Part shown: positions 3,430-16,096 of the stretch, piece after piece
How the letters are laid out: every line of letters begins with the position of its first letter
Position numbering within the stretch: position 1 is the first letter of the stretch
NCBI RefSeq assembly: GCF_026210795.1
Contig: NC_089439.1
Location: 806,001-870,000 of the forward strand
DNA: 64,000 nt
Origin: Rhizophagus irregularis
Taxonomy: Eukaryota > Glomeromycota > Glomeromycetes > Glomerales > Glomeraceae
Reading direction: 5' to 3'
Notes under the pieces: model-generated
The model's database searches: none
Told to the model about the DNA's origin: nothing
What the model saw: the letters and a program-made list of their open reading frames with translations, nothing else
Made by a program: the position numbers and the translations under genes

Positions 3430-4418
3430 TTATATTTGTTGCATATACAGTATGTTAAATAAATAATAATAAAAATAAAACAAATAAATGAACCCTTTTT
3501 TTGTTTTTTATTTTATTTACATTACAATGTAAAAAAAATAAATAAAATAAAAAAGAAGAAAATCAATAAACAAAAAACAAGATGAAATCTTTTTTTTTTT
3601 GTTTATTGTTTATTCATCTGCATTTTTCCTGCATCATACAATAAATAAGGAATTGCCTAAAAAGGAATTCGGAAAATTTATGGGAAATTTCGAAATAGGT
3701 TAAATCATTCTAACTGATATGATGATTACGGAAAAAATCGGTTGATAAGAATTTTTTGATTATTACATAAAATAGATGATAATTTAAAAAAAATTTGTAA
3801 TAGGCTATAATTATTATTACTAAGAACTTTAAATAGTATAAGCAATATATGAACGAGTCTTGATTAGTGATATGCAAAAAAAAAGAAAGAACGGTGATCT
3901 AAAATTAAGAACAATAATAAGAGATTTTTTACCTCAAAATATGTAATACGATATTTAAATTGATTATCTAGTATTATGTAATTATTAAATGAGTCATTAT
4001 TTTTAATTAATGTCTCAAGCTTTTTTTTTTAAAAAAAAAAATAGTGTATTGATAAATTCAAAAAATGCAGCTAAACTTAGAAAGTATTAATATCTTAATG
4101 GAAACTAATAAAAGAAAATCTAAATATATTAATAAATAGCACCCATTAAAATTTTTCTGGATGTTCATCAGTTCCAAAATGTATTTATTGTTTGAATATT
4201 CGTTACGAGATAATTTTTTATTATTTGGTTTTTATTTATTATAAAAATATTCAACAATTTCATCTTTCAACTACTTAATTTATATAAGAAAATCTTGAAG
4301 AGTTAATTTCTATTAACTGTCTGTGATATTGATTCATTCTTATATTCACCGCTAAGGAGATGGTTCGAGCATTAGTTGGTATATATATCATGTGATCTAC
4401 GAATATATATTATACTGT
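3430..4418. other. AT-rich intergenic region
   Basis: There is no coding region here. It contains A/T homopolymers and a small palindrome around 3505-3565, where TTTTATTTTATTTACATT is mirrored by AATGTAAAAAAAATAAATAAAATAAAA. The last bases CTGT (4415-4418) are the left target-site duplication of the LTR retrotransposon. Confidence 0.6.
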
Positions 4419-5033
4419 TGTAATACCGTAGTATATCTAGTAAATTTATTAATTGTGAGGCGCAGTATTACATTTAGTCTTAGTGTATAAAATTTTAACT
4501 TATTTTTATTTTTATTTTAAATTGGACCGAGAAGTCGTTAAACTAATAATCACATGGATTAAGGTAATTGGTCCGTGATGACCTTAAACTATTAGTCACG
4601 AGATTTAAGGATAAATGAGGATCCGAAAGATACTAAATTAAATGAAATCAAGTGATCTGAGGTGTCAAGTGATTAATTTGTTGATCACTACGTTAATATT
4701 ATAAATCATAATTCAGGAGTTTATGATGATCAAATGGATACAAAATTAAGATAATGGAAATACTTTAAAACAATGGAAATACTTTAATAATTTAAATCCA
4801 TGAATCGAAATTATGAATTTAGTTACACAAAAACAAACATAAAAGGGCGTGAAGATCACCTTTTGGAAAGGGGAGAGAGAGAAATTAGACAAATTTTGTT
4901 ATGAATCATTTATTTTGTTATTTAATGTTATTAAACCAAGCATATTATTGTATTTATTTATATTATTAATAAAGAGTCATTTTGTTAATACCTGAGGTGG
5001 CAAACATAATTCTCTATGGGCTCAGGTGTTACA
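4419..5033 (+). repeat. 5' LTR
   Basis: It begins TGTAATACC and ends TGTTACA, giving TGTAA/TTACA inverted ends with the usual TG...CA borders. AATAAA at 4968-4973 is a probable polyadenylation signal inside the LTR. I found no difference from the 3' LTR when reading the two copies side by side. Confidence 0.95.
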
Positions 5034-5035
5034 AG

Positions 5036-5051
5036 TGGTGCATGCTCCGAG
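5036..5051 (+). promoter_or_regulatory. Primer-binding site
   Basis: TGGTGCATGCTCCGAG starts 2 nt after the LTR. It begins with TGG, the complement of the tRNA 3' CCA, and predicts a primer tRNA ending CTCGGAGCATGCACCA, i.e. acceptor 3' strand AGCATGC, discriminator A. The predicted 5' acceptor strand GCATGCT occurs exactly at 14178-14184 in a tRNA-Gly-like sequence of the same element. Confidence 0.75.
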
Positions 5052-5626
5052 AAAGGAAAGTGATCATCCTCACATGATCACTACAGGTTATAAGTACAGG
5101 ATCTCTGAGAAAAGAAAATGATCACCCCCACGTGATCATTAGAAGTTACAAATAAAGGATCGACAAAGTTAAGGAATTATAAAATTAAAAGTTCTAAGTC
5201 TTGGTTGAAAAAGAATTTAAGGCGTATTAACGTTAAATTTTAATAAAATAAAGTTAAATATTTTAAAGGATACGTGAAAATAATGGTTACCAAGGTAAAA
5301 GGTATTAATTTGGGTGAGTATGACCATAAATGTATAAAGAGATAATGTTAAAAATTAAATTTTTGATCTAACTTGACCACCGGCTGATAAGTCAATGAAA
5401 AATTATTATTATAATAATTTTCATACATATGAACCAAATATGTATGGTAGTAATTGATTATCAAGGGAAATGCGAGGCTAATCAAGTTAGAAGGGGTTTT
5501 AATAGAATATTGTAAATAAGTTCCATGAATTAAGGATTAAAAATAATTTTTATAAATAATTGAGGTTAAGTTAAGGATAAAAAGTGTACCCAAAAACCGA
5601 CACTATAAATACGATGGTAGGGTAAT

Positions 5627-5775
5627 TCTGTGTGAACTCAATTGAGGTTTTCTGTGTGATCAATTGAGAATAGTTCTGTGTGAGCTTTTTCTGTGTGAAC
5701 TCAATTGAGGTATTCTGTGTGATCAATTGAGAATAGTTCTGTGTGAACTTCCAAAAACAATTCTGTGTGAGGGTA
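5627..5775 (+). repeat. Leader tandem repeats (63-bp unit)
   Basis: Two 63-bp units (starting 5627 and 5690) and a partial third lie in the untranslated leader of the retrotransposon. Each contains two TCTGTGTGA motifs and CAATTGA elements that are self-complementary. The position between primer-binding site and gag suits a packaging or dimerisation signal, which is inference. Confidence 0.7.
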
Positions 5776-6293
5776 CCCAAGAAAAATCATGATTAACGTT
5801 AACAAAAATTAAAATAATGTTTGCTGGACAAATATATTCAAGGAAGGTTATTAAAAATTAATAAGGATATAAATGATAAGAGATTTTGTAGCGTAGTAAA
5901 ATTATATAAAATGTCAATACAGGTGTCGAGATTATTAATTAAAGATTATCAAAGCACAGTAAATTTTAGGATATAATAGAATTAGAGGCGTAGTAGGAGC
6001 ATATGAAAGAGGGAGATTTGAATCTCCCACTTATTAAATGAATTGTTGACACCGAGGAAAGATACATCAGTCTTGGAAATACAACAAATAATCGGACAAA
6101 TCAAATATGGATTCACACCTCAACCTTAGGTTGGAAAATTTTATGGAATATAAATTTATTTGTACAAACCTGTAAACTACCATACTCAGTAATGAACAAA
6201 TGAGGTAAAGGCAAGCCCAGTATAGGTCAAATAAAATATAAAAGAAGGATAAAAAGTAAAAGACGCGAAAATTTTTAGAGAATTTTATTAAAA

Positions 6294-9200
6294 ATGGAAT
6301 GGTACCATGTTTGGAACGCTGAATATATAAACCATAAACAAGAACATGACCTAGGAGTGATAGAACCAGAGGAATGTTTAGCATGTGAAATATGTAATCC
6401 AATAGAAAGAGAAGTATCAGCAGCATTCAAGAAATTTTGGGATGCTTTATTTAAATTTGAGGATACAATACTAATGTACAATAATGTGACACATAAAGAA
6501 TTATTGAATTTATTAAGTATGGACAATAGAGAAAGGGAGGATACAATACATAAGGGAAAATGTAGGAATATAGTAGATAGAATAATTGAATCAATAAGGT
6601 ACAGACAACAACCAAAAATGAAGGAAAAAGGATTGAGAATAATAATTGTAGTAATTGTAAGGGATTGTATTGAAGGAAACTTGGAAAATGAAGTATTTGA
6701 TCGATTAATAGGATGTCCAGAAATAATGAAACATGGATACATTTTAGAAGATTGGGATGTTGAAAATAGATTTCAAAAATTTTGGGATTGGTATAACACG
6801 ATATTGGAAAATGAAATGAAAGCAATACATGTTAAGAAGTTAGCAATGAAGTTATTCAGGGATCTATTATATGAAGAAACAGAAGATCTGTTGAGGAAAG
6901 AAGAGGTAATTGAATTATTACTCCAGATAGAATATCAGAATAGATGTGAGACAGACACGCAAGAAGGAGGTGATGCATGGATAAGATATGTATCAAAAGT
7001 AAGACAAAGATTTATTGATACCAAACAATTTACAAGGGAACCTGAGGACCCAGAAAGTGATAGTCCTGAAAGTTATGAATTAGAGGACAGTGATGGTAGT
7101 ATACATTATGAAATAAAAATAGAGGATGATGTCGAATGGACAGTGGAATCATTAAAAAGAAAAATTGAAGAAATGGGTGGAAGGTTCACTGACAAGGATA
7201 TACAAAGAATGTGGGACCTAAGGATAAGGATAGAATTGATATTAACAGAAGACTTTTTAGGTACATTTTTCGAATTAATGAGACTAAGTGATGAAAAATT
7301 AAAAGATGAAATAAATGAATGGTTAACAAAAGAAACATTGAGATGTGGAAATTGTAGAAATAGAAAGTTACCTGATATGATAGCAGACATTGGACAATGT
7401 AAAAATTGTGAACAAAAAGAATTATTAGAATTAAAGGATGACTTAGAAAAATTAGGATACGAATTAAATGTGTCAGAAATAGAAAGAATGAGAAAATTCA
7501 GGATAAGCAATAGTATAATATTAACAACGGAATTTATGGAAAAATATTTCCAGGAAATTGATACGAATGACAAAGAATTAAGGATAAAATTATATGAATG
7601 GATAAATGAAAATACCACATTTTGTAATGAATGTGGAATAAGATGGATAAACAATAAATTTGACGAAGGAAAAACCAAGTGTAGGGATTGTGAAAATGAC
7701 GAAAATGAAATTGATATCAGGGTTAAAAGATTAAAACAAATATGTGATGATAATAAAATAGGAATAACTAATGGAGAGTTATTGAGGTTAATCAGTATGG
7801 GATATACTGATGGAGAAATATTGGATCAAGAATTTATTGAAATATTCCAAGGAAATAAAAATGAAATGGAGAAAAATTTAAGGCGAATATTAGATAAATT
7901 TCTAAAACAGCAAGCTGGAATTGAGGATAGTGAAAGTAGTGGAAATGAATCTGATAATGAAAAATCTGATGGATCTGAAAAAGAATCAGATGGATCTGGA
8001 AAAGACGGAGAAATTTTAAATCCAAATGATACCGATAACAATGAAAATTTTGAAGAACCTTATGAAGAAAACATTATAAATAGACCTGGTTTTGACTCAA
8101 GTGAAAGTTCAGAATCAAACTCTGAGGATAAAAGTGAAATATCTGATTATAATATAGAAAATTTATTTGAAACACCTTTAACACCACCGATACCACCAAT
8201 TCTACCAATAGTACCAATAATTATGGGAGCAACAAGAGCTGAAGTAAGGGAAGATTTTAGAGCGGCTTTACTAGCAGCAACGGGACATGATATAGGAGGT
8301 AATTGGGCTGGATTAGTCGCAGCCAACCCATTAGCAAATGCAATTGAGGATGCAGGAAATGTAGCTGGAGGAATAATTAGTATGCCACAATTTTATGGAA
8401 GGGAAGAAGAAGACATAAACGATTGGGTAAGACAATTTGAAACAGCATTTACTGCTATAGGAAAAGCAGCAGGAGTAAATGGAGCTAGACAAGCAGCAAT
8501 GGCAGCTACCTGTTTGAAAGGTGCAGCAGCACAATGGTATAATGAAAAGAAGGAAGCAAACAATGGTCATTTGGTAAATTGGCAAGATAACGATAATGAT
8601 AATGATTTAAAACATAGGATTAAACAAAGATTTACCAGGGAAGATGTTAGAAAAAGGAAAATGTTAGAATTAAGGAAAATAACACAAGGAGTAAATGAAA
8701 ATGTTGAGACATATACGATAAGGTTTAGACAAATATTAAGGATAGCTACCAGAGGCCATGCATTAGATGATGAATTACAAGTGGATAATTATATCGAAGG
8801 ATTAACACCAACATTGGGATATCAAGTCAGAAGACAAAACCCAGCAAATTTAAATGATGCAGTGAATACAGCAAGAAGAGAGGAGGAAGCTACTAATGAA
8901 TTAATAAGAAAGACGCGTGGTATATCAGTTAGTACCCAAAGAAAAGGAATCGATATACAAGATGACAAACCAAAGAATATATTTGAAAAACCATTGGAGA
9001 AAAATTATGAGGATGACCTTGCCGACATGTTTAAAAAATTAGAGGTAAAACTAGTAAATCAACTTGGAGGGCAAAAGAGACCACCAAACAATAATAATAG
9101 ACAAGGACCACCACCTCGAGCATGTTATAATTGTAAACAACCAGGACATTATGCAAATGAATGTAGGGTAAATAATGGTCAAAGAAACTATGGAAGACCA

Positions 9201-9881
9201 AATAATCAAAATTATAATAGAAGATCAAATAACTATAATGGAAGACCAAATAACTATAACAGACCACCAAACCACCAAAACAATAATCGAGGATTCAATG
9301 TAGTGGAATATGATAGTTATAATGACCAATATGACCAATATGATTATGATAGTCAGGATTATCAGGATAATTATGACCAAGGATATAGTTATGACGACCC
9401 GTATTATCAAGATAATGATGTAACATTTAACCATGTTGATCAAGACTTTTATATTGGTGAAAGACAAACAAGAAGTAACATAAAAAATAGGTCAAGTAAT
9501 CGAGATGTAGATATGGAAATTGACCAAGAACAAGCACGAAGAAGGAATAATAAATATGCAAGCCAAGAGGAAAGGGCAGCAGCATTACCAAAAAGAGGAT
9601 TCACTGATGAAAGTCTGAGGAAAGCACAAGAAGCAAGGAGAAATAATAATACATGTGGAAATTGTGGACAAAGAGGTCACTATGCAAAACAATGTAAAAA
9701 TGAACGTGTTGAAGGTATCCATAGGACAAGCGCATTTCAGAGGAACATACCAGAATATAACATAATAGAGGATCTGAAAAATACCAGAGCAAATGCAACC
9801 TTTTCACAAATTATAAATATGAGTCCAGAGCAAAGGAAAATATATTATGAAGGAATGAGAAGGTATCCACAAACAGATTGA
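6294..9881 (+). CDS. gag: Gag polyprotein with long N-terminal zinc-module extension (1195 aa)
   Basis: The C-terminal half is a normal Gypsy Gag. A retrotransposon-gag domain spans about residues 697-865 (PQFYGREEEDINDWVRQF, later AAAQWYNEKK). CCHC zinc knuckles are at C944-C957 (CYNCKQPGHYANEC) and C1121-C1134 (CGNCGQRGHYAKQC), with an Asn/Arg/Tyr-rich linker. Residues 1-643 are an extension rich in Glu, Lys and Ile that I do not recognise. It contains two copies, about 93 residues apart, of a four-Cys module (C351/C354/C369/C372 and C444/C447/C463/C466) preceded by a helical segment ending EW, then an acidic Ser/Asp tract at about 540-610. Gag here is about twice the common length. A second possible start is M644 (MGATRAEV). 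The ORF ends in TGA followed by CTA, with protease in the same frame. Confidence 0.93.
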   Translation: MEWYHVWNAEYINHKQEHDLGVIEPEECLACEICNPIEREVSAAFKKFWDALFKFEDTILMYNNVTHKELLNLLSMDNREREDTIHKGKCRNIVDRIIESIRYRQQPKMKEKGLRIIIVVIVRDCIEGNLENEVFDRLIGCPEIMKHGYILEDWDVENRFQKFWDWYNTILENEMKAIHVKKLAMKLFRDLLYEETEDLLRKEEVIELLLQIEYQNRCETDTQEGGDAWIRYVSKVRQRFIDTKQFTREPEDPESDSPESYELEDSDGSIHYEIKIEDDVEWTVESLKRKIEEMGGRFTDKDIQRMWDLRIRIELILTEDFLGTFFELMRLSDEKLKDEINEWLTKETLRCGNCRNRKLPDMIADIGQCKNCEQKELLELKDDLEKLGYELNVSEIERMRKFRISNSIILTTEFMEKYFQEIDTNDKELRIKLYEWINENTTFCNECGIRWINNKFDEGKTKCRDCENDENEIDIRVKRLKQICDDNKIGITNGELLRLISMGYTDGEILDQEFIEIFQGNKNEMEKNLRRILDKFLKQQAGIEDSESSGNESDNEKSDGSEKESDGSGKDGEILNPNDTDNNENFEEPYEENIINRPGFDSSESSESNSEDKSEISDYNIENLFETPLTPPIPPILPIVPIIMGATRAEVREDFRAALLAATGHDIGGNWAGLVAANPLANAIEDAGNVAGGIISMPQFYGREEEDINDWVRQFETAFTAIGKAAGVNGARQAAMAATCLKGAAAQWYNEKKEANNGHLVNWQDNDNDNDLKHRIKQRFTREDVRKRKMLELRKITQGVNENVETYTIRFRQILRIATRGHALDDELQVDNYIEGLTPTLGYQVRRQNPANLNDAVNTARREEEATNELIRKTRGISVSTQRKGIDIQDDKPKNIFEKPLEKNYEDDLADMFKKLEVKLVNQLGGQKRPPNNNNRQGPPPRACYNCKQPGHYANECRVNNGQRNYGRPNNQNYNRRSNNYNGRPNNYNRPPNHQNNNRGFNVVEYDSYNDQYDQYDYDSQDYQDNYDQGYSYDDPYYQDNDVTFNHVDQDFYIGERQTRSNIKNRSSNRDVDMEIDQEQARRRNNKYASQEERAAALPKRGFTDESLRKAQEARRNNNTCGNCGQRGHYAKQCKNERVEGIHRTSAFQRNIPEYNIIEDLKNTRANATFSQIINMSPEQRKIYYEGMRRYPQTD

Positions 9882-9884
9882 CTA
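9879..9884 (+). promoter_or_regulatory. Probable UGA-CUA readthrough site between gag and protease
   Basis: The gag stop TGA (9879-9881) is followed directly by CTA, and the frame stays open through CAA GAA TCA into the protease ATG at 9894. UGA followed by CUA is one of the established leaky stop contexts used by several RNA viruses and by some cellular genes. The in-frame arrangement in an otherwise intact element suggests that Gag-Pro is made by readthrough. A 3' stimulatory structure was not evaluated. Confidence 0.6.
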
Positions 9885-9893
9885 CAAGAATCA

Positions 9894-10421
9894 ATGAACA
9901 ACATTGAAGCAGAACACTTAACTGCATTAAGGGGTAAATTAATAATAAACCAAGAATTAAAGGACGTAATGTTTGATACAGGAGCAGCAGTAAATGTAAT
10001 AACTAGTCAGATAATGGATGAAATGGACCTAAAAATTGAGGAACCAAGTACAGTAAGATGTGTGATGATAAATGAGGATAAATTAGCATCTAGGGGTACC
10101 ACGACAATATACATACAATTTGGGGATAAGGAAATACCCATTAAGGTTGAAGTAATTGATTCAGGAAAAAACGAAATTGTGTTAGGAAATGGAGTATTAG
10201 ATATGTTCAAAGCAAATATAGATTACACAGATAAAACAATAATAATTAGAATGAATGATGAAACTATGGATATACCAGTAAAATACACACAAAGGACCAT
10301 TAAAGGGTTTGAAGAAACATTTGATGAAGAGGAAATATTAGAAGAATTATACCAGGATGAATTGTATAACATATATGAGGATGACCATGAAGGTCAGGAA
10401 GATGAAAATTTTAAAGTATAA
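9894..10421 (+). CDS. pro: Retroviral-type aspartic protease (175 aa frame)
   Basis: The catalytic motif DTG is at residues 28-30 (VMFDTGAAVNVI), followed later by the hydrophobic flap-side motif EIVLGNGVL (about residues 98-106), as in retropepsins. The C-terminal third is acidic. The ATG at 9894 is four codons after the gag stop in the same frame, so the protein may be made as a Gag-Pro fusion by readthrough rather than from this ATG. The frame ends TAA at 10419-10421, where the RT frame (offset -1) is already open. Confidence 0.88.
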   Translation: MNNIEAEHLTALRGKLIINQELKDVMFDTGAAVNVITSQIMDEMDLKIEEPSTVRCVMINEDKLASRGTTTIYIQFGDKEIPIKVEVIDSGKNEIVLGNGVLDMFKANIDYTDKTIIIRMNDETMDIPVKYTQRTIKGFEETFDEEEILEELYQDELYNIYEDDHEGQEDENFKV

Positions 10422-11896
10422 GTCTTGGTCAGAATGATACTGAAGAGACGATAAAGAAGCACAAAAGTGACCATGAAAAATTTACTGAAAAATTTAAAGT
10501 AGGGGACATAACCAATGAACAAAAAGGTAAATTAAAAGTATTAGTAGAAAAATATAAGGATATATTTGAGTACGATGGTGAAAAATATAATAGGACAAAC
10601 CTAGTAAAACATGAAATCAGATTAAAAGGGGGTACTGAACCAATAGCCCAAAAGAGGTACAAAGAAAATGATGAAAAAGGTAAATTCATCAGAAAAGAGG
10701 TTGACGAGATGTTAAAATTGGGAAAAATTAGAGAATCTAGAAGTCCATGGTCTTCACCAGTGACTTTAGCAGGGAAAAAGTCGGGAAATTATAGATTTTG
10801 CATCGACTATAGAAAATTAAATAAAGTTACAATAACAGATGCATATCCATTACCGAGGATTGATGAACAATTAGAAAGGATAAGTTCAGGAAAATGGTTT
10901 ACCAGTCTAGATTTAGCATCAGGGTTTAATCAGATAGAAATGGCTGAGGAAGATATTGAGAAAACAGCATTCATATGCTCAGCAGGATTATATGAATATA
11001 ATGTCATGCCATTTGGGTTAACAAATGCGCCTGCAAGTTTTCAAAGGTTAATGGATAAAGTATTAAAGGAGTACCTAAATGAATTTGTGATAGTATACAT
11101 TGATGATATAATGATATATTCGGAAAATTTTGAAGACCACCTAAAACACATAAAGTTAGTGTTAGAAAAATTAAAGGAAGCCAGTTTAATACTAAAGTTA
11201 AAGAAATGTATATTTGGGAAAACAGAAATAGAATTTTTAGGACATGTAGTTGGTAAGAATGGATTAAAACCAAGTCCAGGAAAGGTTGAAAAGATACAAA
11301 AATTAACAGCACCTATAAATATAAAAGGTGTAAGGTCAATATTAGGGTTATGTACGTATTATAGAAAATTTATTAAAGATTTTTCAAAAATAGTAAAACC
11401 AATAACATCTTTATTGAGAAAAGATGAAAAGTTTGAATGGGGCATCAAACAACATGAAGCATTAGAAATATTAAAAAGGAAATTAACCGAAGAACCGGTG
11501 TTAAGACAACCAGATTGGTTAAGGAAATTTATATTAATTACAGATGCTTCAGGAATAGGATTAGGGGCAGTGTTAGCTCAAAAAGATGATAAAGGTCAAG
11601 AATATGTAATAGAATATGCCAGTAAAAGTTTAAACAGGACAGAACAAAGATGGCCAATAACCGAACAAGAATGTTATGCAATTGTATGGGGAATACAACA
11701 TTTCCATAAATACTTGATCAATAGAAAATTTGAGGTAGTAACAGACCATGCAGCTTTGAAGGGATTAATGACTGCAAAAGTACCAAAAGGAAAGAGATCA
11801 AGATGGGTCATGGAATTGGAACAGTATGATTTTGAAATAACCCATAGACCAGGAAAAGAAAATAAAAACGCAGATGCCTTATCAAGAATAATATAA
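10415..11896 (+). CDS. pol: Reverse transcriptase-RNase H
   Basis: The frame is open from 10415; the first ATG is only at 10709, inside the RT domain, so the 98 codons before it belong to the protein (they include the typical Gypsy segment ending QKRY... before DEMLKLGKI). RT motifs include SPVTLAGKKSG, FTSLDLASGFNQI, PFGLTNAPASFQRLMD and the catalytic YIDD (residues 130-133 counted from 10709). RNase H follows with ILITDASG (D279), E321, TDHAAL (D346) and NADALSRI. It ends TAA at 11894-11896, followed in frame by another TAA, so the integrase is not simply part of this protein. The frame is -1 relative to protease, and a standard slippery site that works is not visible in the 7-nt overlap. 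Confidence 0.93.
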   Translation, partial: SISLGQNDTEETIKKHKSDHEKFTEKFKVGDITNEQKGKLKVLVEKYKDIFEYDGEKYNRTNLVKHEIRLKGGTEPIAQKRYKENDEKGKFIRKEVDEMLKLGKIRESRSPWSSPVTLAGKKSGNYRFCIDYRKLNKVTITDAYPLPRIDEQLERISSGKWFTSLDLASGFNQIEMAEEDIEKTAFICSAGLYEYNVMPFGLTNAPASFQRLMDKVLKEYLNEFVIVYIDDIMIYSENFEDHLKHIKLVLEKLKEASLILKLKKCIFGKTEIEFLGHVVGKNGLKPSPGKVEKIQKLTAPINIKGVRSILGLCTYYRKFIKDFSKIVKPITSLLRKDEKFEWGIKQHEALEILKRKLTEEPVLRQPDWLRKFILITDASGIGLGAVLAQKDDKGQEYVIEYASKSLNRTEQRWPITEQECYAIVWGIQHFHKYLINRKFEVVTDHAALKGLMTAKVPKGKRSRWVMELEQYDFEITHRPGKENKNADALSRII

Positions 11897-11932
11897 ATAG
11901 ATGGGTAAAAGAGTTACTTTTCAAAAATAAAA

Positions 11933-12172
11933 ATGGAACAAGTGGTAAGAAATACAAATCATAAAATAAAGGATATAATCGAAAATTTAGAAGGTATAAC
12001 AAAGGAATTAAACAGGATAAATTATAACTATAAATTCAAAGCCAAAAATTTTGAAGATAGTGAAGAAAGACCATTAATATTGGAAACTCAAGAGGAAATA
12101 TTACAAATAGAGGTGATATTAAGTAAAGTAAACAAGCTAAAATTATCAGAATTATGTAAAAATGGGACCTAA
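11933..12172 (+). CDS. Small coiled-coil-like ORF between RNase H and integrase (79 aa)
   Basis: A free-standing 79-codon frame in the same phase as RT, separated from it by two stop codons. The sequence is rich in Ile, Leu, Glu, Lys and Asn in a heptad-like spacing (KIKDIIENLEGITKELNRI), suggesting helix or coiled coil. I do not recognise it. Its last 11 nt overlap the next start: ATGGGACCTAA contains both the ATG of the kinase-integrase ORF (12162) and this ORF's TAA, an arrangement compatible with termination-reinitiation. It could also be a structural remnant of an originally continuous pol. Confidence 0.5.
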   Translation: MEQVVRNTNHKIKDIIENLEGITKELNRINYNYKFKAKNFEDSEERPLILETQEEILQIEVILSKVNKLKLSELCKNGT

Positions 12173-13943
12173 AATAATAATCATATGTGGAGTTGATGGT
12201 ACTGGAAAAACATTCATTGTAAATAAACTTATAAAAGAATTTGAAAAAGTAGGACAAAGTGTGAGGTTTAACACCTTTAAAAGGAGAAGAGAGGACAATG
12301 ATAAGTATAAAATACCAAAGAAAGGTATAGAATGGGAATTCAGGAAGGAAGTTGTCGAACAAATCAACAGGAGAATGGAAGAACATGATAATGAGGATTG
12401 GTTAATATTAGATAAAAGTCCCTATAGTGAGTACTTTTATCAACAAACACCATCATTCGACAGAGGATACATAACAAGATATGAGAACCACCTATTAGAA
12501 AAGGAAGTATTTAGGAACAAAAGGATAATTGATGAATCAATAGTGATATTTTTAGAAAATGAAAAATGTTGGGAAAATTACAAAGGTAGAGAATATTCGA
12601 AAAAGGATCAAGGACATAAAACATCATACCCATTATTAGATGAAGAAAGATATATGGAGATGGTGAAATCATTTAAAGAATGTCAAGATATTTACGAAGG
12701 AGAAAAATATGCTAATATTAAAATATCAAATAATGACACAGATTGGGAAAGAGTATATAATAAAATAATAGAATTAGATAGAGATAAACCACCAATAGAG
12801 GTTAAAAATGTTGAGATTAAGGATAACATCAGAGTAACTGATGGTAAAAAGCATATTGAGAAAAATGGTAAAAACATCAGAATAATAGAAGACTTTGAAA
12901 AGATGGGAGCACTATATTTAGCTCACAGTCATGAATTATCGGCACATATGGGAATCAAAAGTACTTATGATAATTTAAAAGATAAATATTATTGGGAAAA
13001 TATGCTGAATGATGTTGAAAGATATGTAAGGACATGTGATGAATGCCAAAGAAGGGGAAAACCACAAGGGAAAAATGAATTACACCCAATTAAAGTAGTA
13101 GAACCATGGTATCAAATCGGGATTGACTTTGTTGGACCATTGAACACAACAACAAATGGTAATAAATACATCATAGTAGCAATGGATTATTTTACAAAAT
13201 GGCCAGAAGCCAAAGCAGTAAAAGAAGCAACTGCTAAAGAAGTATCAAAATTTATTTATGAAGACATCATTTGTAGACATGGATGCCCAATGAAAATATT
13301 GAGTGATAGAGGAAGTCATTTCAATAATGAAATGATTAAAGAATTAATGGAAAAATTCAAAATTAAATGGAATTTTTCTACAAGTTATCATCCAGAGACA
13401 AACGGACTTGTTGAAAGATTCAACCGAACATTAGGCCAAGCATTAGCAAAATTATCAACCAAAGATGATTGGGATCAAAGGATAGCACCCATATTATTTG
13501 CTTACCGAAATAAAAAGCATAGTTCAACAAGAATTCGACCATTTTATTTAACATACGGAAGAAATGTACGGACAGTAATGGATGAAAATATCAAAGAAAT
13601 TAACCTAAGTGATAGAATAGTTGGATTATTAGAAGAACTACCAAAAATCCGACATGAAGCTAAAGAACAAATATTGAAATCTCAAATAAAACAAAAAGAG
13701 TATCATGACAGAAAAATAATCAAAGAACACACCTTTGGAATTGGAGATAAAATACTACTCTATGATAAAGCCAAAGCACAACAACTATCTGGAAAACTAG
13801 AATCAAAATGGTTAGGACCATTTTACATTCACGAAATACTACCGAATGGAGCTTATAGAATTAAAAATATTAAAGGTGTCATCAAGAAGATACCTGTAAA
13901 TGGAGAATTATTAAAGACTTACCATACACCGATGAGTAAATGA
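12162..13943 (+). CDS. Thymidylate-kinase-like domain fused to retroviral integrase (593 aa)
   Basis: Residues 4-205 form a P-loop kinase of the thymidylate/deoxynucleotide kinase type: Walker A GVDGTGKT (10-17), then DKSPYSEYFYQ (84-94), matching the TMK family pattern DRYxxSxxAYQ with Lys instead of Arg, and a Lys/Arg/Asp-rich segment near 140-155 where a LID would lie (GREYSKKDQGHK). Residues about 250-593 are a complete Gypsy integrase: HHCC zinc motif (H257, H262, C292, C295), catalytic D322 (GIDFVGP), D382 (LSDRGSHF) and E418 (NGLVERFNR) with exact D-35-E spacing, and a GPF/Y-type C-terminal motif (WLGPFYIHEILPNGAYRI). The start is ATG 12162 because the frame upstream is open only to 12141. 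Known biology: TMKs phosphorylate dTMP. Inference: the domain raises dTTP supply for reverse transcription or has been repurposed for binding. The kinase may be inactive, since the DR arginine is Lys. Confidence 0.9.
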   Translation: MGPKIIIICGVDGTGKTFIVNKLIKEFEKVGQSVRFNTFKRRREDNDKYKIPKKGIEWEFRKEVVEQINRRMEEHDNEDWLILDKSPYSEYFYQQTPSFDRGYITRYENHLLEKEVFRNKRIIDESIVIFLENEKCWENYKGREYSKKDQGHKTSYPLLDEERYMEMVKSFKECQDIYEGEKYANIKISNNDTDWERVYNKIIELDRDKPPIEVKNVEIKDNIRVTDGKKHIEKNGKNIRIIEDFEKMGALYLAHSHELSAHMGIKSTYDNLKDKYYWENMLNDVERYVRTCDECQRRGKPQGKNELHPIKVVEPWYQIGIDFVGPLNTTTNGNKYIIVAMDYFTKWPEAKAVKEATAKEVSKFIYEDIICRHGCPMKILSDRGSHFNNEMIKELMEKFKIKWNFSTSYHPETNGLVERFNRTLGQALAKLSTKDDWDQRIAPILFAYRNKKHSSTRIRPFYLTYGRNVRTVMDENIKEINLSDRIVGLLEELPKIRHEAKEQILKSQIKQKEYHDRKIIKEHTFGIGDKILLYDKAKAQQLSGKLESKWLGPFYIHEILPNGAYRIKNIKGVIKKIPVNGELLKTYHTPMSK

Positions 13944-14177
13944 TAACTATCATCAATGGACTTAGAAAAATAAAAATAACTTATAATCATGTGAAATAAA
14001 ATCACATGACATAAAAATAATTCTCGAAAATAGGAAAAACTAATGAAAATTTCCTAAGAAAGACCGAAGTGAAATCCGGTACAGGAAAACCGTAGACTTA
14101 ACAAACACATGATAAACCGCAGATGTAGACGCAGCAAAAAAAAGAATATTTAAAACGCAGCTGAGTCAAGTGACAAT

Positions 14178-14246
14178 GCATGCTTGATTTAGTGGTATAA
14201 TTCGCACCTACCACTTCGAGACACGAGTTCGATTCTTAGAATAAAT
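14178..14246 (+). pseudogene. Degenerate tRNA-Gly-like sequence inside the retrotransposon
   Basis: The 69-nt stretch reads like a eukaryotic tRNA-Gly: acceptor strand GCATGCT, D-arm AGTGGTA, anticodon loop CTACCAC (anticodon ACC), and T-loop TTCGATT. The acceptor 5' strand is exactly what the primer-binding site predicts for the primer tRNA. The 3' half has drifted: compared with the predicted primer end, differences are nearly all C-to-T or G-to-A, so the acceptor no longer pairs. The anticodon stem also pairs poorly. It lies between integrase and the polypurine tract. It is most likely a captured copy of the primer tRNA, not a working gene. Confidence 0.6.
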
Positions 14247-14270
14247 TTAATGTGGGCATTAAATTTTTAT

Positions 14271-14282
14271 GCGGGGGATAGT
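14271..14282 (+). promoter_or_regulatory. Polypurine tract
   Basis: GCGGGGGATAGT immediately precedes the 3' LTR. It is the expected site for priming plus-strand DNA synthesis in an LTR retrotransposon. Confidence 0.8.
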
Positions 14283-14897
14283 TGTAATACCGTAGTATAT
14301 CTAGTAAATTTATTAATTGTGAGGCGCAGTATTACATTTAGTCTTAGTGTATAAAATTTTAACTTATTTTTATTTTTATTTTAAATTGGACCGAGAAGTC
14401 GTTAAACTAATAATCACATGGATTAAGGTAATTGGTCCGTGATGACCTTAAACTATTAGTCACGAGATTTAAGGATAAATGAGGATCCGAAAGATACTAA
14501 ATTAAATGAAATCAAGTGATCTGAGGTGTCAAGTGATTAATTTGTTGATCACTACGTTAATATTATAAATCATAATTCAGGAGTTTATGATGATCAAATG
14601 GATACAAAATTAAGATAATGGAAATACTTTAAAACAATGGAAATACTTTAATAATTTAAATCCATGAATCGAAATTATGAATTTAGTTACACAAAAACAA
14701 ACATAAAAGGGCGTGAAGATCACCTTTTGGAAAGGGGAGAGAGAGAAATTAGACAAATTTTGTTATGAATCATTTATTTTGTTATTTAATGTTATTAAAC
14801 CAAGCATATTATTGTATTTATTTATATTATTAATAAAGAGTCATTTTGTTAATACCTGAGGTGGCAAACATAATTCTCTATGGGCTCAGGTGTTACA
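14283..14897 (+). repeat. 3' LTR
   Basis: 615 bp, apparently identical to the 5' LTR. It is followed by CTGT (14898-14901), the right target-site duplication. Confidence 0.95.
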
Positions 14898-16096
14898 CTG
14901 TACACTCGTTGCACGATGTTATTATCAAGATAGATTTGGTTTAGAAATAAGAACACTTAAAATGAAGCTATCGATTTGTTCGAGAAAAAACTTATTACTT
15001 AGATTTTAATATAAATATGGTACCTGTGAGAGAAATACATTTTACATATTATGTGATGTTACTAATACTTTATTTTTCTCAATAATTTTAATTTGGCCGA
15101 ATTTTGGATGAATTCTGGTCGAATTCAAAGATCGGCACTTTCGTAACACTGGTGTAAACTTAAAATTCAAATTATGTGTTATCCTTGACATGTTATAAAT
15201 GAGAAAATATAACGCCTGCAACGCTGAGTCATCCAAATTATTAATTATAACTTCCTAAACATTTTCTTATAATCTCATCAACATCATCCTAAGTAGAAAA
15301 ATTTTGTTTATTATGTTATATGACTTATTTAGTTCGTTAATCTAATGATCGAAATTTTCAGATACGTATGTATATCATAGTATCATTTCGTTGATAATTG
15401 CGTTTCCCTGTCGAGAAAGATCCATAAAAAAAAACTTTATTGATGGATAAAATGATACTAAACAAAGTAAGGTATATCGATTGTAAATATAATAAAAAAA
15501 ATATTATATTAGGACAGTCAAAAAAAAATTTTGAAAATTTTAAATCAAATAGTCAACATTAGTATAAAATTATATCAACCTTTTATCAACAGAGGTTAGT
15601 CGGGTACCTGAGAATTCATTGAGTTTATTTCTCGATGAAATTAGATAGTAAATAACATAACTGGATATATTTACTTAAAATTAAAGGTAGCATTTGTATC
15701 AGTCTTCGTCAAGACCAAAAAATAGAATGTAGGAGAGGCAATGCGATCTATAACATGCTTTACTCAATGTATTTTGCATTGTGTACTTGCATCTTATCTA
15801 TCTTATCTGTATATCACCGACGTCACGAAAAATATATATTAACATATGATACCGCTTTATTATCCGGCCGTCATTTTTTAAAAAAATTTCTAATTGCAAA
15901 AAGTCCGCGTAATTTAATATAACATAACAAATCATTATATAAATATATGCATCTATTCTTTATCGTCTTAAAAGACTCACAATAATACGATCTAAAGGCT
16001 GGAACTAAATGTGTCAATCCAATTTTTTAATACATAAAGCATCAGTTAGACGAGATTCTTCTACTATTATATAAAATATTTGTCAAATCAAAAGTA
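14898..16096. other. AT-rich intergenic region
   Basis: No convincing gene. One 64-codon minus-strand ORF (15042-15236) has no recognisable feature. No clear repeats were noted. Confidence 0.55.

Follow-up and report, generated by a model that had tools for sequence, protein, structure and literature searches.

Ty3/Gypsy retrotransposons of one group in the glomeromycete Rhizophagus irregularis carry a P-loop domain between the RNase H and the integrase of pol. By its sequence, this domain resembles thymidylate kinases (TMKs) and deoxynucleoside kinases (dNKs). It is found across related elements, its motifs are conserved, and it has passed as a cassette from one subfamily to another. In the reading preferred here, which stands at about even probability, the kinase of these elements would be packaged, phosphorylate a deoxynucleotide and feed reverse transcription. 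The window analysed is a stretch of 64,000 nucleotides of contig NC_089439.1, from a genome of 146.7 Mb in 32 contigs. It contains one such element, 10.5 kb long, at positions 4419–14897. Its features are listed below in window coordinates (+, forward strand).

4415–4418, no strand: target-site duplication (TSD) CTGT, 5' copy; same letters as 14898–14901
4419–5033, +: 5' LTR (TGTAATACC...GGTGTTACA); identical to 14283–14897, 615 bases
5036–5052, +: putative primer-binding site, complementing the 3' end of a tRNA, probably tRNA-Gly (direct reading)
6294–9881, +: gag ORF, 1195 aa, with a capsid-like part and zinc knuckles in the C-terminal half; ends UGA then CUA (Retrotrans_gag 3.9e-12, zf-CCHC 8.5e-8)
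9882–10421, +: protease ORF in the gag frame, past the UGA (gag-asp_proteas 2e-7)
10415–11896, +: reverse transcriptase (RT) and RNase H ORF, 493 aa (RVT_1 7.7e-42, RT_RNaseH 2.2e-36)
12162–13943, +: kinase–integrase ORF, 593 aa, open (ORF call)
12162–12782, +: thymidylate/deoxynucleoside-kinase-like P-loop domain, residues 1 to about 206–207; P-loop 10–17, DKS motif 84–94, LID-like segment 136–156 (profile matches, alignments)
12912–13058, +: integrase HHCC zinc-binding domain (Integrase_H2C2 1.6e-17)
13113–13478, +: integrase DD35E core (rve 9.2e-11, rve_3 1.2e-5; D322, D382, E418)
14178–14239, +: presumed tRNA-Gly-like sequence, upstream of the polypurine tract (direct reading)
14271–14280, +: polypurine tract, adjoining the 3' LTR (direct reading)
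14283–14897, +: 3' LTR, identical to the 5' LTR
14898–14901, no strand: TSD CTGT, 3' copy; same as 4415–4418

The element begins and ends with TGTAATACC/GGTGTTACA, its LTRs agree at 615 of 615 bases, and the 4-bp CTGT duplication flanks it. The LTRs, the TSD, a primer-binding site and a polypurine tract (the last two found by eye), together with the Pfam domains in the order protease, RT, RNase H, integrase, identify a Ty3/Gypsy element into which the kinase is placed after RNase H. A preliminary description made from the letters of the window had proposed a Gypsy element with identical LTRs and without decay, and an uninterrupted frame running from a kinase-like domain into a full HHCC-DD35E integrase. 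The window copy bears this out. The frame is open throughout, the integrase is complete, with an HHCC finger followed by D322-59-D382-35-E418, and the motifs GVDGTGKT (residues 10–17) and DKSPYSEYFYQ (84–94) lie exactly where they had been placed. The kinase shares its frame with the integrase in the subfamily of the window. No dUTPase family is among the Pfam matches of the four scanned element ORFs.

The gag frame stops at UGA-CUA (9876–9890) and the protease continues in the same frame. The same letters stand ahead of the protease in 16 of the 17 copies with a protease match (20 loci tested among L009–L028). UGA-CUA is a known readthrough context, so the gag–protease product is probably made by stop-codon readthrough. 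A −1 slippery site leading from protease to RT was rejected: worked out by hand, slippage runs into a stop immediately. Other details of the element were noted in passing. The acceptor stem of the tRNA whose 3' end the primer site complements would pair with GCATGCT. The sequence just 5' of the polypurine tract, which we take to resemble tRNA-Gly, begins GCATGCTTGATTTAGTGG; ARAGORN reports no tRNA in the window. The leader before gag contains tandem-repeat-like copies of a 62-base unit (5626–5774). The N-terminal region of gag (6294–8300) places more than 600 residues, with repeated Cys-rich stretches, ahead of the capsid-like part, and has no Pfam match below E 0.1.

The class of the domain is indicated by profile matches. 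PHROG 761 (thymidylate kinase) covers residues 3–198 of the window domain (E 8.9e-13) and matches all 13 aligned genomic relatives (best 1.3e-15). TIGR00041 (dTMP kinase) likewise matches 13 of 13 (best 4.3e-7), and at E ≤ 0.1 PF02223 (Thymidylate_kin) matches all 13 of them as well as all 20 members of a wider set. A precomputed table assigns PF02223 to several relatives, and one related fragment elsewhere in the genome scores 27.7 bits. Residues 1–215 of the window protein thus have the predicted profile similarity to Pfam Thymidylate_kin, though at 21.3 bits against a curated cut-off of 27. Other families count against a TMK-type reading. Generic P-loop families score as high as Thymidylate_kin or higher; in Pfam AAA_28 (best 3.4e-7) outscores it (1e-5), in NCBIfam PRK08233 (best 7.9e-9) beats dTMP kinase, and the adenylate kinase PRK04040 matches 13 of 13 relatives. 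PHROG 761 is not confined to TMKs: besides E. coli Tmk (7.3e-38) it recognises a fungal dNK (2.4e-17), and each of 14 control genomes has matches to it. It is therefore a marker of the combined TMK/dNK group. The dNK family PF01712 is missing from the 23 families that match the window domain at E ≤ 0.1; for other members of the domain, the 25 commonest Pfam families were listed. In one-to-one hhalign comparisons, whose E-values are uncalibrated and without a decoy, the domain can be aligned to E. coli Tmk, to phage TMK-like proteins and, along 165 columns, to the dNK of the R. irregularis genome. A sequence search of solved structures gives matches at the level of the P-loop only; most are to FtsY, and no TMK chain scores better than E 0.05. 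Because PHROG 761 spans both groups, the PF02223 cut-off is missed and a dNK aligns as well, the domain is classed as a TMK/dNK-like P-loop kinase domain and not as a strict TMK. The earlier label of thymidylate kinase holds as to the P-loop nucleotide-kinase type and is too specific beyond that, given the D-K-S motif and the low PF02223 score.

The motifs point the same way. Invariant in 20 diverse aligned sequences are G10, D12 and Lys16 of the P-loop GxDGxGK[S/T], D84-K85-S86-P87-Y88, R143-E144, K147, R41, R43 and R61. A chance P-loop is ruled out by these conserved motifs and the PHROG 761 match. The second motif is D-R-Y in TMKs and E-R-S, within E-R-S-x-Y-S, in dNKs; the D-K-S of the domain shares features with both. 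Like thymidylate kinases (PF02223/PHROG 761, phage enzymes included), the domain has a P-loop of the GxDGxGK[S/T] form, a match over the full length of the PHROG, and the E. coli Tmk-type pattern D-x4-[SC]-x3-Y-Q, so that D-K-S-P-Y-[SC]-E-Y-[FY]-Y-Q aligns with D-R-H-D-L-S-T-Q-A-Y-Q. Unlike them, it has Lys for the Arg of DR[YHS] in 20 of 20 aligned sequences and in 50 of 50 genomic copies, falls below the Pfam cut-off and has no close cellular or phage TMK relative among the proteins found. Its D-K-S-x-Y-S also resembles the dNK motif, whereas the Asp of its P-loop is of TMK type and PF01712 is missing from its matches.

This same Arg-to-Lys change would suit a domain that binds nucleotides without converting them, or whose role in pol is that of a spacer or a structural part. 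A precedent is BIV, whose replication depends critically on a dUTPase-like protein devoid of dUTPase activity, according to the available portion of PMC4261571. Such a role is unlikely. The catalytic motifs are kept in sequences just 53–65% identical to the window's domain, which a spacer would not need, and the less similar element L062 does without a spacer at that site. Phosphorylation of nucleic-acid 5' ends, on cDNA, primer or RNA fragments, is a distinctly unlikely function. In its favour are a relationship to the P-loop kinases of the polynucleotide kinase group, several basic residues (KRRR), and matches of the polynucleotide kinase family PHROG 505 to the metagenome protein P0123 (0.0016) and to one of the 13 aligned genomic relatives (0.014); against this, the TMK-type PHROG fits far better, at 1.3e-15 versus 0.014.

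The position of the kinase is constant. In 25 of 28 mapped loci the order is RT, RNase H, kinase, integrase; in the stretch read, RT is missing from L010, L023 and L027, and integrase also from L027, with the remaining parts in the same order. The reading frames vary. Among 50 copies, RNase H is separate from a joined kinase–integrase in 26, and RNase H–kinase is separate from integrase in 13; the kinase frame includes neither neighbour whole in eight, and is broken in three. The metagenome relatives P0043, P0045, P0055, P0059, P0061 and P0074 are separate predicted proteins of 252–264 residues. The conserved feature is therefore the place in pol, after RNase H and before the integrase. Fusion to the integrase, put forward for the window copy, is correct for one subfamily and does not extend to the 13 copies in which the integrase lies outside the kinase frame. 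Those 13 copies also speak against a role in regulating or tethering the integrase, in which the P-loop would act as a nucleotide-driven switch in target choice or intasome assembly. The single frame in 26 copies, the weak AAA-type Pfam matches and the precedent of other elements, where ATPases such as IstB and TnsC help the DDE enzyme, favour such a regulator. However, the acceptor-side and LID motifs of the domain, which are typical of phosphotransferases, are no less conserved than the P-loop, and the kinase has been exchanged between elements without the integrase. On balance a regulator or tether is rather unlikely.

Presence of the kinase follows RT similarity. With the RT of the window as query, 150 of 284 candidates were scored and a kinase was sought up to 4.5 kb downstream on the same strand. 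It is found at 30 of 32 RT matches with at least 98% identity and at 89 of 90 with 66–75%, giving 119 of 122 related RTs (at least 66% identity); in the three others, a kinase match lies 5–17 kb downstream on the same strand. At or below 65% identity, 0 of 28 RTs are followed by a kinase, 27 of them judged by absence from the kinase match list (150 of 177 candidates scored) and one, L062, read directly. In L062 the distance from where RNase H should end to the start of the integrase is about 200 bases, and this gap holds no kinase. The contrast of 119 of 122 with 0 of 28 suggests that the kinase was probably gained once in this RT group, as judged from identity levels and no tree. The less similar elements may also have lost it.

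Copies are numerous. With 150 of 177 candidates scored, at least 151 kinase-domain matches are present in the R. irregularis genome, some of them fragments or split. Thirty-four cover at least 214 of 215 residues at 89–100% identity and lie on many contigs; the larger set, fragments and split matches included, is mostly 53–62% identical. A single copy or an assembly error is thereby ruled out, and the domain recurs in other Gypsy copies and in other Glomeraceae. Some copies look recent: at least 16 listed RT matches, the window's own included, have 100% protein identity to the window's RT, and the two LTRs of the window copy are identical. Of 50 sampled copies, weighted to the best matches (30 loci and 20 further copies), all keep the DKSPY motif, 49 the LID motif and 47 the P-loop, with Gly or Ala allowed at the second Gly; the aligned part is free of stops in 47.

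The domain is under purifying selection. By the Nei–Gojobori method, applied to 14 chosen pairs among 12 copies, which share copies and are not independent, kinase dN/dS is 0.07–0.14 in 11 pairs. The other three pairs comprise values of 0.18 and 0.19 with dS above 1.3, and one that is saturated. For the same 11 pairs, dN/dS is 0.03–0.11 in RT (eight pairs computed) and 0.10–0.19 in integrase (10 pairs computed), so constraint on the kinase is of about the same strength as on the domains beside it. For L001 against L009, a pair within the family of the window's element, the kinase is less constrained than RT, at 0.14 against 0.03. Retroelements occasionally capture host sequence, and a functionless host gene fragment carried by chance (transduplication) would be one way to explain an odd domain in pol. 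It is highly improbable and already contradicted by dN/dS about 0.1 rather than near 1, by some 150 genome matches (fragments included, 150 of 177 candidates scored), by relatives in at least three named species and by PF02223 scores below those of the genome's own matches.

Comparison of subfamilies indicates that the kinase has been swapped as a cassette. At the DNA level L021 and L020 are 97–100% identical to L016 through RT, RNase H and linker, while the kinase is 63–77% and the integrase core 85–92% identical. Against L022, the same two loci are 81–93% identical in the kinase and 61–83% elsewhere outside gapped windows. The dS values between L021 and L022 fit kinase exchange, being lowest in the kinase (0.58), followed by RNase H (0.97), RT (1.40) and integrase (2.5). 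The likely route would be template switching.

Relatives in the protein collection come from R. irregularis, R. clarus and Glomus cerebriforme, together with many metagenome proteins. The R. irregularis proteins P0001 and P0002 are 100% and 98% identical over the part searched, which agrees with the species of the window. Because candidates were required to share short words and to be close in length, this search may have passed over relatives that are strongly diverged or very long. Single proteins are already labelled 'thymidylate kinase-like' in databases, without the element context. No strong match outside the kinase family appears in this collection; the next best are metagenome proteins of about 200 residues (P0136 and others) at E 1.1e-3 and worse, and all five tested (P0136, P0139, P0141, P0146, P0156) match PHROG 761. 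In the metagenome protein P0123, a NUDIX domain precedes the same kinase family, a joining that points to nucleotide handling. No NUDIX partner is found in the R. irregularis genome: 104 of 105 matches to P0123 start at residue 157 or later, past the NUDIX domain (58–143), and the remaining one begins at residue 114 and holds six stops.

A phage or prokaryote donor was considered; at the sensitivity of the search, neither viral contigs nor prokaryote genomes contain a relative of the kinase domain. Phage matches by tblastn are weak (47 records, with E 0.4 or worse among the 20 listed). Recent capture of a host thymidylate kinase is also rejected as the likely source. The genome's own PF02223 matches, on C13 and C24, differ in sequence from the element domain, and the best of them scores higher. 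A separate locus, L033 (G000:C28:1224005-1224616), has a 336-aa ORF with a dNK domain (PF01712, 1.2e-31); inspected by eye, the surrounding 3.6 kb contains no obvious RT or integrase ORF.

The closest parallels are retroelements that carry dUTPase, in which a deoxynucleotide enzyme is likewise inserted in pol; the enzyme here is a P-loop kinase-like domain instead. In non-primate lentiviruses the dUTPase occupies the same slot between RNase H and integrase, as stated in the accessible text of PMC4261571. The preliminary description took nucleotide-enzyme retroelements to be mainly dUTPase-bearing retroviruses. This was too narrow: the parts available of two papers report dUTPase in fungal Gypsy elements of Postia, Phanerochaete and Tuber (PMC2864245) and in the rotifer LTR elements Juno, Vesta and TelKA (PMC5408684). 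In Postia and the rotifers the same excerpts place it elsewhere, at the ends of Pol or between protease and RT. Rotifer LTR elements also resemble the present ones in that a captured enzyme, a GDSL esterase or DEDDy exonuclease, is common to several lineages; theirs is a separate ORF3 for which the accessible portion of PMC5408684 reports no significant departure from neutrality, whereas the kinase here lies in pol and is strongly constrained. Accessory domains are also treated in PMC6338049, as far as its available text goes. As had been supposed, no kinase-bearing LTR element is described among the open-access journal articles whose full text was searched. The word 'thymidylate' is absent from the available text of two papers on R. 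irregularis transposable elements (PMC8647823, PMC11075540), as is 'kinase' from that of a paper on fungal LTR elements (PMC3248453). Nucleotide enzymes in retroelements are already known through dUTPase; what is new, within this literature, is a kinase-like domain.

The supply of dTDP/dTTP by the domain is plausible, and the preferred role would comprise the following steps. (i) The kinase would be made as part of the pol products. (ii) It would be packaged into the particle, free or joined to RNase H or integrase. (iii) It would move a phosphate from ATP to a deoxynucleotide, with dTMP as the first guess. (iv) The product would feed dTTP to reverse transcription in hyphae and spores, or hold the dUTP/dTTP ratio low. 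The nuclei of hyphae and spores are mostly not replicating. Two findings count against a supply role. The host genome already contains a dNK gene and PF02223 matches of its own, so the need for an element kinase is not obvious, and elements with less similar RTs exist without a kinase (0 of 28). A broader proposal, towards which the balance leans slightly negative, is that an active deoxynucleotide kinase in the particle would make reverse transcription partly independent of the host's nucleotide supply in non-dividing multinucleate hyphae, and that the cassette circulates among element families. No nucleotide kinase within pol would have been known before. The kinase, if active, would extend the enzymes of retroelements from dUTPase to nucleotide synthesis, and would allow one to ask in a natural setting whether reverse transcription in arrested nuclei is limited by the supply of dNTPs. 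Recent-looking copies stand beside related kinase-less elements in one genome, which opens the benefit of the kinase to comparative study. Among the kinase-less elements, L062 has, at its positions 131–277, the short peptide HC-x-LFEDK-x-I-x-FILPFE-x-EIE ahead of the integrase, and the same peptide recurs at the end of the kinase protein P0068.
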